From: Sporichthya polymorpha DSM 43042
GTDB lineage: Bacteria; Actinomycetota; Actinomycetes; Sporichthyales; Sporichthyaceae
Direction of reading: 5' to 3'
DNA length: 64,000 nt
Assembly (NCBI RefSeq): GCF_000384115.1
Contig: NZ_KB913029.1
Location: 1,212,907-1,276,906, forward strand
Shown: positions 3,860 to 49,063 of the stretch, in pieces
How the letters are laid out: each line of letters starts with the position of its first letter
Numbering within the stretch: the stretch's first letter is position 1
The notes under the pieces: model-generated
The model's input: the letters and a program-made list of their open reading frames with translations, nothing else
Told to the model about the DNA's origin: nothing
Databases searched by the model: none
Position numbers and translations under genes: made by a program

Positions 3860-4308
3860 GCGGCAACCTCACGCTGATCCTCACCGCGTCGGTCCTCATC
3901 GGCTGCGGCGTCTACCTGATCCTCGAGCGCAGCCTGACGCGGGTGCTCGTCGGTCTGCTCGTGATGGGCAACGGCGTCAACATGCTGTTCCTGGTCGCGG
4001 GCGGTCGCGCCGGGAAGGCGCCGATCGCCAACGAGTACGCCCCGGCGGAGATCTCCGATCCGGTCCCGCAGGCGCTCGTGCTCACGGCAATCGTCATCGC
4101 CCTCGGCACGACGGCCTTCGTGCTCGCGATGGCCCACCGCAGCTGGCAGCTCTACGGCAACGACGACGTCCAGGACGACGTCGAGGACGCCGCGATCCGC
4201 CGCCTCGCCGCGGCGGACGAGGCCTCGGACAGCCACGACCTCATGACGCAGGGCGTCGACCTGCCCGAGGACGATCTCGAACGACTGCGCGAGGAGGAGA
4301 CGGCGTGA
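3856..4308 (+). CDS. mrpC: Mrp antiporter subunit C
   Basis: A 150-residue subunit resembling NuoK, with three membrane helices (about 4-22, 28-48 and 73-95) and the conserved GxGVNMLFLV segment around residue 38. The C-terminal 45 residues form an acidic cytosolic tail that is longer than in typical MrpC (about 110-120 residues). The ATG overlaps the mrpA stop by 4 nt, which implies translational coupling. The subunit is required for assembly of the antiporter complex. Confidence 0.94.
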   Translation: MSGNLTLILTASVLIGCGVYLILERSLTRVLVGLLVMGNGVNMLFLVAGGRAGKAPIANEYAPAEISDPVPQALVLTAIVIALGTTAFVLAMAHRSWQLYGNDDVQDDVEDAAIRRLAAADEASDSHDLMTQGVDLPEDDLERLREEETA

Positions 4309-7328: not shown

Positions 7329-9467
7329 TCAGCGGTTCTGCAGAGCGTCGGTCAGCAGCGAGACCAGCGCCTCCAGCTGGACGTCGACCGAGGACGAGAC
7401 CTCGTCGTCGGAGCCGTCGAGCGCGCGGGCGGCGAGGCCGGCCTTGCTGTCGATGAGCTCCGCGATGCGGGCGTCGAGGGTCTGCGCGGCGATGATGCGC
7501 CACGCGGTGACGGGTTCGGTCTGGCCGATGCGGTGGCAGCGGTCGATCGCCTGCGTCTGCTCCGCGTCGGTCCAGGACAGCTCGGCGAGGACGATGTTCG
7601 ACGCGACCTGCAGGTTGATGCCGACACCGGCCGCGGTCAGGGAGCAGACCGCGATCGAGACCTCGGGGTCGTTGGTGAACGCGTCGACCTGCTTCTGTCG
7701 CGCCGCGGAGGTCTGGTCGCCGCGGATCGACGCGAAGGTGATGCCGGCCTTGGTGAACGTCTCCTCGGCGGCGTCCATGACGTCGATGTGCTTGGCGAAG
7801 AACACCACCTTGCCGGCGCTGCGGGCCAGCTGGGCGGCGTAGTCGGCGGCGAGGACGGCCTTGGACTGGCCGATCTTGCGCATCAGGCCGAACACGTTGC
7901 CCTCGGTCTTGCTGTTCGTCGCCTCCTTGCGCTCACGCGTCGCGATGAGGCGGACCAGGTCGTGGTCGATGCCGTCGGCGATGTGGCCGCTCGTGCGCGC
8001 CTCGAGCGCGGCCTCGTAACGCGAGACCATCCGCTTCGCGAGACGCTGCTCGGCCTGCCGGATCGACTTGCCCAGCTTGTCCTCGAGCTCGACGGGCAGG
8101 TCGGCGATGCGGCGGGCCGGGATGTCGGCAGCGACGTCCACCTTGCGGCGGCGGACGATGCCCATGTCGATGACGCAGCGGCGGGCCGCGGGGTAGAACT
8201 CGCGATCGATCGGCGTCAGGCCGGTCTCCTCGAGGCGGGCCATCAGCTCGCTGCGCGGTTTCTTCGCGTCGATCCAGCCGAGGAACTCCCAGATCGCCTG
8301 GAAGTCCTCGATGTCGTTGATCAGCGGCGTCCCGGTCAGCGCCATCAGCAGCGGGCGGACCGAGCGGTTGCGGATCCGCTCGGCCAGCTCCAAGACGTGC
8401 TGGGAGCGCTGCGAGGTCTTGTTCTTGATGAAGTGGGCCTCGTCGACGACCATCCCGCGGAAGCCGAAGTCGCCGATCCAGCCGACGTGCCGGTCGAGCA
8501 CCTCGTAGTTGACGATGACGACGTCGGCGAAGCCGTCGATGGTCTCGCCGTTGCCGTGGATCACGGTGGGCTTGCGGTTGGGCGTCCAGATCCCGACCTC
8601 ACGCGCCCAGTTCGTCTTGACGACGTTCGGGACGACGCAGAGCAGCGGGAACGCGTTCGCGGCCTCGGCGGCGAGCAGCGCCTGGGCGGTCTTGCCGAGA
8701 CCGGGTTCGTCGGCGAGCAGGAAGGTCCGGTGGCCGGCGGCCGCGGCGGCGATCAGTCGGGACTGGTGCGGCATCAGCTCGCGGCCGGAGAACACCCGCA
8801 GGTCGCCCGGTTCGGGCAGCGGCATGAGCGCCGAGTCCCCGCCCGTGGCTTCCTCGAACGAGCGGAAGAGCGGCTCGAGCAGCTCCCAGGTCGCGAGGTG
8901 ACGGGTCCGCGGGGCGGTCGGCTGCGCCGCGGCCGCGGAGAAGTCGGGGGCGAGGAACGGGTTCGCCAGCTGCCGCTGCATCACCGACTGGGGCACGACG
9001 CGCTTCTCGGCGGCCGGCGTGGCGGGAGTGGGGGCGGGGCGGGGCTCCTCCTCCGGCGGGGCTTCGAGCCCGGCGTCGGTAAGCATCGACCGGACCATCG
9101 CCCGCGTGTCGGCGGGGACGACCGCGTCGTCGGCCAGCAGGGCGAGCAGCGAGGGTTCCCGGACCGAGGTCTGGGCGAGGATCATCGCGATCCCGTCCAG
9201 GCGCTTGAGCATCTCGGCCTTCTGGGCCTCGCCCGCCGAGCTGTCGCTCTTGACCCGCGCCCGCTCCTGGCGGACCAGCAGGGCCACGCTCTGGAACTTC
9301 GTGCGCACGGACGGCGAGATCGACCCGCGGTTCACCGACGCCTCGACGGCCCGTACGGCACGGGCCAGCACCGGGATGATGCCCTCGTCCGAGCGTGCTT
9401 TCGGCCGGCGGTCCGGCCGCGGGACGGGGCGACGAGCACCCGACGGTGCCTGCCGAGGTCGAGCCAC
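7329..9467 (-). CDS. SNF2-family DEAD/DEAH-box helicase
   Basis: A 712-residue superfamily-2 ATPase of the SNF2 type. Motifs in order: Walker A LADEPGLGKT (about 251-260), DEAH (342-345), ALTGTPLIND (about 376-385), and motif VI QAIDRCHRIGQ (639-649). The N-terminal 230 residues are basic and Pro/Ala-rich with no recognised domain. An upstream in-frame extension to 9599 exists, but GTG 9467 has a strong AAGGAGG site five bases before it, so I place the start there. The compact layout resembles annealing helicases and DNA-repair SNF2 proteins; the substrate is unknown. A 217-nt gap follows to the desaturase stop upstream. Confidence 0.9.
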   Translation of the reverse strand: MARPRQAPSGARRPVPRPDRRPKARSDEGIIPVLARAVRAVEASVNRGSISPSVRTKFQSVALLVRQERARVKSDSSAGEAQKAEMLKRLDGIAMILAQTSVREPSLLALLADDAVVPADTRAMVRSMLTDAGLEAPPEEEPRPAPTPATPAAEKRVVPQSVMQRQLANPFLAPDFSAAAAQPTAPRTRHLATWELLEPLFRSFEEATGGDSALMPLPEPGDLRVFSGRELMPHQSRLIAAAAAGHRTFLLADEPGLGKTAQALLAAEAANAFPLLCVVPNVVKTNWAREVGIWTPNRKPTVIHGNGETIDGFADVVIVNYEVLDRHVGWIGDFGFRGMVVDEAHFIKNKTSQRSQHVLELAERIRNRSVRPLLMALTGTPLINDIEDFQAIWEFLGWIDAKKPRSELMARLEETGLTPIDREFYPAARRCVIDMGIVRRRKVDVAADIPARRIADLPVELEDKLGKSIRQAEQRLAKRMVSRYEAALEARTSGHIADGIDHDLVRLIATRERKEATNSKTEGNVFGLMRKIGQSKAVLAADYAAQLARSAGKVVFFAKHIDVMDAAEETFTKAGITFASIRGDQTSAARQKQVDAFTNDPEVSIAVCSLTAAGVGINLQVASNIVLAELSWTDAEQTQAIDRCHRIGQTEPVTAWRIIAAQTLDARIAELIDSKAGLAARALDGSDDEVSSSVDVQLEALVSLLTDALQNR

Positions 9468-24377: not shown

Positions 24378-24427
24378 AAGAAAGGGTGACACCCCTTACT
24401 CCGCAGTAGGGGGTGTCACCCTTTCTT
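24378..24427. terminator. Palindromic terminator repeat, copy 1
   Basis: Perfect 18-bp arms AAGAAAGGGTGACACCCC and GGGGTGTCACCCTTTCTT are joined by TTACT-CCGC-AGTAG. Only one mismatch separates this from a 23-bp stem with a CCGC loop. It lies 29 nt past the livF stop and is oriented to terminate livGF. Near-identical copies lie at 40384 and 48106. Confidence 0.85.
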
Positions 24428-40383: not shown

Positions 40384-40427
40384 AAAGGGTGACACCCCGT
40401 ACTCCGCAGTAAGGGGTGTCACCCTTT
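40384..40427. terminator. Palindromic terminator repeat, copy 2
   Basis: 15-bp arms AAAGGGTGACACCCC and GGGGTGTCACCCTTT surround an inner TACT-CCGC-AGTA stem-loop. It lies between the convergent TetR and binding-protein genes, so it can serve both strands. It is nearly identical to the copies at 24378 and 48106. Confidence 0.85.
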
Positions 40428-48105: not shown

Positions 48106-48165
48106 TGTCAAGAAGGGCGCCGACACCCCTTACTGCGGAGTAAGGGGTGTCACCCTTTCTTGACA
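48106..48165. terminator. Palindromic terminator repeat, copy 3 (inverted)
   Basis: Outer arms TGTCAAGAA and TTCTTGACA and inner arms GACACCCCTTACT and AGTAAGGGGTGTC surround a GCGG loop. That loop is the reverse complement of the CCGC loop in copies 1 and 2, so this copy lies in the opposite orientation. The left arm has a small divergence (GGGCGCC). It sits between the convergent sulfotransferase and CoA-transferase genes. Confidence 0.85.
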
Positions 48166-48168
48166 GCG

Positions 48169-48810
48169 CTACGGGGTGAGCGCGACGGCGAAGTCGGGTT
48201 CGGTCTTCGCCCGGACCTCGTCGACGGTGACGCCCGGCGCGGTCTCGCGGAGAACCAGCCCGTCGGGGGTGACGTCGAGGACCGCGAGGTCGGTGATCAC
48301 CCGGTGGACGACGCGGCGCCCGGTGTACGGGAGCGAGCACTCGTTCACGATCTTGTACGAGCCGTCCTTCGCGACGTGCTCCATCAGGACGAGGACGCGC
48401 TTCGCGCCGTGGACGAGGTCCATCGCCCCGCCCATGCCCTTGACGAGCTTGCCCGGGACCATCCAGTTGGCGAGGTCACCGGCGGCGGAGACCTGCATGG
48501 CACCGAGGATCGCGACGTCGATCTTGCCGCCGCGGATCATCCCGAACGACAGCGCGGAGTCGAAGAACGTCGCCCCCGGCCGGACGGTGACGGTCTCCTT
48601 GCCGGCGTTGATGAGGTCCGGGTCGAGCTGGTCCTCCCGCGGGTACGGGCCCACCCCGAGGATGCCGTTCTCCGAGTGCAGTACGAGCTCGACGTCGTCG
48701 GCGACGTAGTTCGGCACGAGCGTCGGCAACCCGATGCCCAGGTTGACGTACCAGCCGTCCCGCAGCTCCGCCGCCGCCCGGGCCGCCATCTGCTCCCGCG
48801 TCAACGCCAC
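48169..48810 (-). CDS. 3-oxoacid CoA-transferase subunit B
   Basis: A 213-residue family I CoA-transferase beta subunit. It has the catalytic glutamate motif [10 protein letters not shown] near residue 47 and the [19 protein letters not shown] block. It moves CoA between acyl-CoA and 3-oxoacids. Subunit A is normally encoded just upstream in the same operon, but upstream here are only a palindrome, a very small gene and a tRNA. Its A partner must be elsewhere or lost. Confidence 0.9.
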
Positions 48811-48842: not shown

Positions 48843-48890
48843 TAACGTCAGCGGGATCGTGCGCTATAGCGCGCGATTCCGCTGACGTTA
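48843..48890. repeat. 48-bp near-perfect palindrome
   Basis: The outer arms TAACGTCAGCGG and CCGCTGACGTTA match perfectly. Inside them, ATCG/CGAT and the self-complementary centre GCGCTATAGCGC continue the symmetry with only two mismatched base pairs. It lies between the divergent CoA-transferase start (48810) and a small gene (48902). Roles to consider: operator, recombination site, or remnant of a small palindromic element. Confidence 0.8.
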
Positions 48891-48901: not shown

Positions 48902-49063
48902 GTGCCTGCCGACGGCGGCCTGGTGATCGCGGTGCTCCTGTACCTGGACGGCGCCCGGGACCGGCTGCCGGCCGAGCACGGCTCGATCGAGGCCTACCGG
49001 GCGGCCGCGGGGGTCGGCCCCGAGGGGCTGGACCGGCTCCGCGAGGTCCTGCTGCAAGGGTAA
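48902..49063 (+). CDS. Very small protein; possible phosphatase C-terminal remnant
   Basis: A 53-residue frame with good actinobacterial codon use, beginning [19 protein letters not shown] and ending [17 protein letters not shown]. The segment [21 protein letters not shown] resembles the C-terminal helices of actinobacterial tyrosine phosphatases (pattern HGSxEAYL-x(3)-GV-x(3)-L-x-RLR). It could be a genuine small protein or the stranded 3' end of a phosphatase gene. Only a weak purine-rich site precedes the GTG. Confidence 0.4.

Follow-up and report, generated by a model that had tools for sequence, protein, structure and literature searches.

The palindrome and its surroundings

The stretch of DNA analysed here (64,000 nucleotides, referred to as the window) includes, at positions 48843-48890, a long palindrome located between two gene starts, and the question is whether it is a single odd site or part of something more general, and what it may do. 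The initial annotation described a near-perfect palindrome of 48 bp, 24 bp on each side with two mismatches, between a CoA-transferase gene and a possible gene remnant and near a tRNA, and suggested that it could be a recombination or replication-fork site, a long terminator-attenuator or the scar of a deleted element. Its form was reproduced. The palindrome has no spacer; each arm is 24 bp long and two pairs are mismatched. It scored 18 in an independent inverted-repeat scan of the window. Four palindromes in the 64 kb scored 13 or more, this one and three of a second repeat family (family B). Five order-1 Markov shuffles of the window had no palindrome scoring at least 13, and the best ones in five further shuffles scored 10-13. 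The palindrome is real and well above what chance would produce. The described surroundings were also found, and the relevant features are as follows.

48122..48151, no strand, family B copy in the gap where a sulfotransferase and a CoA-transferase gene converge, with CCCTTTCTT following on the plus strand
48169..48810, minus strand, CoA-transferase subunit (PF01144), ORF start 32 bp from the palindrome
48843..48890, no strand, the palindrome, one copy of a dispersed family, subtype A, with ACGTCAGCG arms (scan and pattern searches)
48845..48888, no strand, 44-bp fixed-length core, common to 94/94 aligned copies without gaps (alignment)
48902..49063, plus strand, tyrosine-phosphatase remnant, with a weak, below-cut-off match to positions 201-239 of 240 of PF13350
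49073..49149, minus strand, tRNA-Thr(CGT), its 3' end facing the palindrome, 184 bp from the core

In the codon model, 48789 is the preferred start of the CoA-transferase gene, which leaves 55 bp to the core. When the sequence 48843-48890 was folded as RNA, the energies were -45.1 kcal/mol for the plus strand and -41.6 kcal/mol for the minus strand (z scores of -7.7 and -6.6); together with the conserved pairing described below, they correspond to the stable hairpin of a canonical Rho-independent terminator. No terminator-like match was found at 48843-48890. Rfam returned nothing above the gathering score at this site, where the only hit was a chance-level microRNA model (23.3 bits against a cut-off of 100), and returned tRNAs only on twelve other copy loci.

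Other palindromes were observed in the window and around the family copies discussed below. Family B (AAGAAAGGGTGACACCCCTTACT..., mostly with T-rich tails on both sides) occurs in the window at 24378-24427, 40384-40427 and 48122-48151. At no more than 3 mismatches there are 80 family B copies in the own genome (G000) and 108 in the sister genome G002, and none in G001, G003 and G005. This family looks like an amplified bidirectional terminator. A third palindrome type, built around TGGAGATG(A/T)CATCTCCA, was seen in L063, L079 and L092 (near 3960-4250), where it directly adjoins the 48-bp element, as well as in L091 (4298-4326) and L095 (6761-6813 and 7113-7147). Two near-identical inverted repeats, each 70 nt long and separated by about 100 bp, are present in L074 at 7475-7544 and 7641-7710.

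A dispersed family and its placement relative to genes

Searching the genome and its relatives, as the initial annotation had proposed, uncovered dozens of copies, so that the idea of a repeat stood and that of a single odd site did not. The own genome (5.5 Mb, one contig) has 26 subtype-A copies, defined by their ACGTCAGCG arms, at no more than 3 mismatches, and the reversed-pattern control gave 0. Weaker matches, with other arms and the same length, served to derive a common superfamily pattern. At no more than 1 mismatch, this pattern was found 56 times in the own genome, 26 and 16 times in its congeners G002 and G001, 3 and 4 times in G003 and G004, which belong to the same family, and 0 times in the remaining 143 of the 148 genomes, all of the same class. 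Comparison of the exact subtype-A pattern with named genome contigs returned two records, both from one Sporichthya MAG, in a scan that possibly did not extend to this genome or very near ones; viral contigs had 0 exact matches for two subtype patterns. The 48-bp palindrome is one member of a dispersed palindromic family of fixed length (a 44-bp core), not a lone site, and the family is confined to this taxonomic family among the genomes searched. No literature on such repeats in Sporichthya or actinobacteria was found among the open-access papers listed, judged on titles and the beginnings of abstracts.

All 16 exact TAACGTCAGCGG sites in the own genome lie within 48-bp copies, so a longer parent that has exactly these ends was not seen. 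The exact subtype-A 12-mer was not found as an isolated half site in the own genome. MITEs are recognized by terminal inverted repeats, which the family possesses trivially, the whole element being an inverted repeat.

Placement was analysed in 44 own-genome copies, 42 of the 56 matched by the pattern and two more-divergent ones. Genes were called with an own, uncurated codon model plus tRNAs, and the ORFs around L161 and L164 were not trusted as genes (no family, or a family on one side only). Twenty-two copies were convergent, 18 tandem (located after a single gene or tRNA) and 1 divergent; of the other three, 2 lay within ORFs and 1 at the edge of a locus. The element-free gaps of at least 50 bp in the same loci were 15 convergent, 55 tandem and 40 divergent. 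With copies treated as independent, the excess of convergent placements had a Fisher p value of 2.4e-6 and the deficit of divergent ones a value of 7e-6. The 3' end of a gene or tRNA was within 17 bp in 28 of the 42 non-coding copies and within 60 bp in 35 of them; copies behind tRNAs are found 49 bp after a tRNA-Gly and 15 bp after a tRNA-Phe. In eight copies the adjoining ORF, as called, terminates at or within the element (distances -1 or -25), so that the element itself provides the stop codon. Two copies, in L061 on the left of 4002 and in L065 on the right of 4045, abut near-identical DUF222 upstream regions with a CGAACATACGTTCGAAC box that resembles an actinobacterial LexA site.

The family as a whole thus lies mostly behind gene 3' ends, as a Rho-independent terminator does, and the interpretation changes accordingly: what seemed an isolated oddity is a dispersed, taxon-specific repeat at gene ends. 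The window copy is atypical, being flanked by the starts of the CoA-transferase gene and the phosphatase remnant, and it was classed as tandem solely through the 3' end of tRNA-Thr, 184 bp away. An operator at which a transcription factor controls the CoA-transferase and phosphatase genes would agree with a copy that sits between two gene starts and is retained in G002. However, such an operator should lie upstream of starts, whereas only 1 of the 41 classified own-genome copies is divergent (the window copy being counted as tandem) compared with 40 of the 110 background gaps, and in neither species is the phosphatase gene more than a remnant. This candidate was rejected as highly improbable.

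In-frame copies inside ORFs are a minority and are solid at two loci, an ABC-transporter fusion and an AAA/VWA protein. They use the single open frame of the palindrome and encode TSA...DPADVT-like peptides, which shows that the element can also occupy coding linkers. The intra-ORF copies fit the notion of a selfish or neutral MITE- or REP-like repeat that inserts widely, has no termination role and persists only where it is little harmful, just behind genes. Pneumococcal repeats and IS elements have the same placement bias, for which tolerance is one reading (excerpts of PMC3049150). On the other hand, the distances are anchored on stop codons, as the 28 of 42 copies within 17 bp illustrate, and are not spread over the gap, and no longer parent with exactly the TAACGTCAGCGG ends was seen. 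A neutral repeat is an unlikely explanation, although one that deserves serious consideration, and the comparison of arms and sister sites bears on it further.

Arm symmetry and orthologous sites

Ninety-four copies from five genomes aligned without gaps over 44 bp. The G002 copy L083:4001 was left out of these rows because the copy and its near flanks are identical to a G000 copy, and was kept for the comparison of pairs. The two main subtypes, A (CGTCAGCG) and E (CGTCCGAAG, CGTCCGACG, CGTCCGGGG, CGTCCGTG), have in common the ends NCGTC...GACGN, and subtypes switch their outer arms in concert (AGCG against CGAAG). Across all copies, 90.2% of the cells were paired compared with 77.2% in shuffles and 25-43% in slid-partner controls, and both-sided changes numbered 269 against 116 in shuffles, with 0 of 500 shuffles as high. 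The pattern used to collect the copies is itself symmetric; therefore, the fair test is that of the positions that it left free. These core positions (1, 8, 9, 13, 16 and 17) were paired in 80, 90, 84, 70, 51 and 79 of 93 distinct rows, respectively. The two arms of the family co-vary strongly. Within subtype A of the own genome there was no excess symmetry (19.12 of 22, and 18.88 with shuffled arms), and the pairing signal is thus one between subtypes and species. Conservation of pairing across subtypes argues against a neutral repeat.

The 14 subtype-A pairs that are in place in both G000 and G002 differ at 3 of 252 positions in the outer nine bases of each arm, which are nearly frozen, and at 49 of 364 in the inner 26. 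This distribution also argues against a neutral repeat. It would suit a duplex-DNA site for a sequence-specific protein (a nucleoid, gyrase-type, boundary or terminator factor) between convergent genes, for which the REP/BIME-gyrase sites are a model. The invariance of C2, T4, C5 and G7 of the core in 94 of 94 rows, which exceeds the constraint on a mere hairpin, points in the same direction. Nonetheless, a single protein would have to tolerate the concerted switch of the outer arms, and we consider a site of this kind improbable.

The centre of the core follows the genome and not the locus: CTATAG and CTATGA are present in 15 and 3 of the 26 G000 A copies, and in 1 and 8 of 17 in G002. An identical two-base change was found in 5 of the 14 A pairs, and the G000 copy was the better palindrome in 10 pairs and equal in 4. 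Template switching is described as perfecting quasipalindromes in part of PMC7202029. The symmetry and the concerted centres could be produced by this process or by conversion between copies. A more elaborate proposal, which we put forward tentatively and with a good deal of doubt, is that of a self-homogenising 3'-end palindrome in which arms and copies change together at fixed positions and palindrome families are interchangeable at a gene end. A factor specific for the outer arms might then make it a factor-assisted, U-less, strand-symmetric terminator, with symmetry maintained by template switching, inter-copy conversion or both.

Orthologous sites in G002 were judged for 19 of the 26 subtype-A copies; L061, L064, L070:4002, L072, L073, L075, L078 and most E-type sites were left out, and flank matching was one-sided in L074/L086 (right flank only) and in L066/L087 (left only, at a contig end). 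An A copy is in place at 14 sites, including that of the window, a palindrome of a different type stands at 2, and 3 carry no palindrome. The copy is generally retained between orthologous sites and is sometimes absent or swapped for another palindrome type, and these differences in presence and type are in line with a neutral repeat. One swap is that of L069:4002, where the own genome has family A and G002 has family B (GACACCCCTTACT...). The copy of L068 lies within an ORF in which a branched-chain amino-acid permease domain is linked to two ABC domains; it is of type A in the own genome, of type E in G002 and of a third form in G001, and is absent from G003 and G004. L081 and L082 belong to a TCGTCCGGGG subtype in the own genome, and their G002 counterparts bear outer arms of the A type. 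A G001 E-type copy (L142:5473/L158:6060) has both flanks in place and inner arms of another type on both sides. As for absences, the G002 counterpart of L062 is an empty site that is nearly clean, where 10 other bases stand opposite the element-bearing stretch and no target-site duplication of the kind left by MITEs is readable. For L065 and L071, what was recovered in G002 was the gene or tRNA end alone, followed by a different sequence, and these absences are therefore in rearranged places. In L079 (4000-4303), the own genome carries a pair of elements that differ in subtype and are separated by 260 bp, where G002 has one; this difference represents either a tandem gain or a deletion between palindromes.

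The window copy was found in G002 (L096) with 4 of 44 positions changed, flanks 95-97% identical and the same neighbours, and none of the elements collected from G001, G003 and G004 has the flanks of the window. Fixation together with the flanking genes, which the initial annotation would have taken as the mark of a simple operator or terminator, was seen only in the nearest sister. Given the dozens of copies elsewhere, and a window copy that is in place in the sister beside the same neighbours, the suggestions of a deletion scar and of a recombination or replication-fork site are unsupported. The adjoining phosphatase gene does have an internal deletion, larger in the window than in G002, but this deletion is within the phosphatase ORF and not in the palindrome. 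We regard an origin as a scar or a recombination or fork site as most improbable. The decay of the phosphatase gene (window 48902-49063; L096 4058-4306) is stepwise: the G002 ORF is truncated too, less so, with the first codons and the C-terminal part kept, and the window has lost about 90 bases more.

A probable role in termination and comparison with known systems

Among the options offered at the outset, the long terminator was the best fit with regard to gene 3' ends and conserved pairing, and fell short in its lack of a U-tract. We propose that the element is probably a dispersed, REP/SPRITE-like 3'-end hairpin that acts as a bidirectional terminator without a U-tract, the part about termination being an inference. 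A hairpin at the 3' end that can be read both ways is favoured by the placement, the pairing and the one swap with the T-tailed family B. When transcribed from either side, the element would form a hairpin of 20-22 bp directly behind the stop codon, and this hairpin would be a bidirectional, U-tract-less 3'-end signal, either a terminator or a barrier at the 3' end of the RNA. Copies would spread by some copy mechanism and survive chiefly behind genes, where they may be useful or harmless. At the window locus, the element would keep transcription out of the CoA-transferase gene, both read-through from tRNA-Thr and transcription antisense to the phosphatase remnant.

How transcripts end without U-tracts in GC-rich actinobacteria is still debated. 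A canonical U-tract terminator was considered and rejected here, since an earlier T enrichment in the flanks was contradicted by a side-by-side test of 36 tandem copies from five genomes: T amounted to 25.6% at +7..+11 on the far side versus 37.2% on the near side, and only 3 of the 36 copies had far-side runs of at least three T. The negative far-side result suggests that the earlier enrichment came at least partly from stop codons. The absence of a U-tract is also consistent with a neutral repeat. According to parts of PMC8355165, a U trail is not necessary (M. tuberculosis and Streptomyces are named), and 66% (cluster) and 58% (single) of the hairpins identified are within 20 bases of the stop codon; a U-less terminator is therefore plausible. 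Another part of the paper cites, for E. coli, that hairpins should be at least 30 nt from the stop codon, and the fact that most family copies are nearer counts against a terminator. So do the 2 of 44 own copies inside long ORFs, where termination makes no sense, the position of the window copy itself between two gene starts, the 3 of 19 subtype-A sites that lack a palindrome behind the same gene in the sister, and the absence of excess symmetry among the subtype-A arms of the own genome. Termination is the most likely, if unproven, reading, and tolerated insertion is its main rival. The family occurs at gene ends in one bacterial family, and its present, absent and exchanged sister sites are natural test pairs for the role of the hairpin as well as a natural record of how palindromes stay symmetric.

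The known systems most alike are the pneumococcal SPRITE repeats, the REP elements and the Rickettsia palindromic elements. REP/REPIN elements are short extragenic palindromes found behind genes in many copies, together with a RAYT (Y1 transposase). The family resembles them in its many short extragenic palindromes, but its elements are longer and near-perfect, and the exact subtype-A 12-mer does not occur as a half site by itself. A REP system with a resident RAYT was rejected, since Y1_Tnp (PF01797) was found in 0 of the five genomes searched (G000-G003 and G005) and in 5 of 14 control genomes; this result also stands against a neutral repeat. The SPRITE repeats, as characterized in parts of PMC3049150, are likewise small interspersed hairpin repeats in excess between convergent genes and near gene 3' ends, with a proposed co-option as terminators. 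Unlike the family described here, they are rich in AT and combine a duplex of 18 bp with a U-rich tail, whereas this family is GC-rich, spacer-less, symmetric on both strands and U-tract-less, and has several arm subtypes. The Rickettsia palindromic elements also comprise several palindromic families, some in frame within genes, but in the portions of PMC10969869 that describe them they are about 150 bp long and noted for their in-frame gene copies, compared with 2 of 44 own copies in coding sequence here. Ordinary terminators, unlike these elements, are not repeats of one family whose length is fixed and whose outer sequence is frozen. What the family shares with the actinobacterial U-less intrinsic terminators, as they are presented in parts of PMC8355165, is a stable hairpin close after stop codons.
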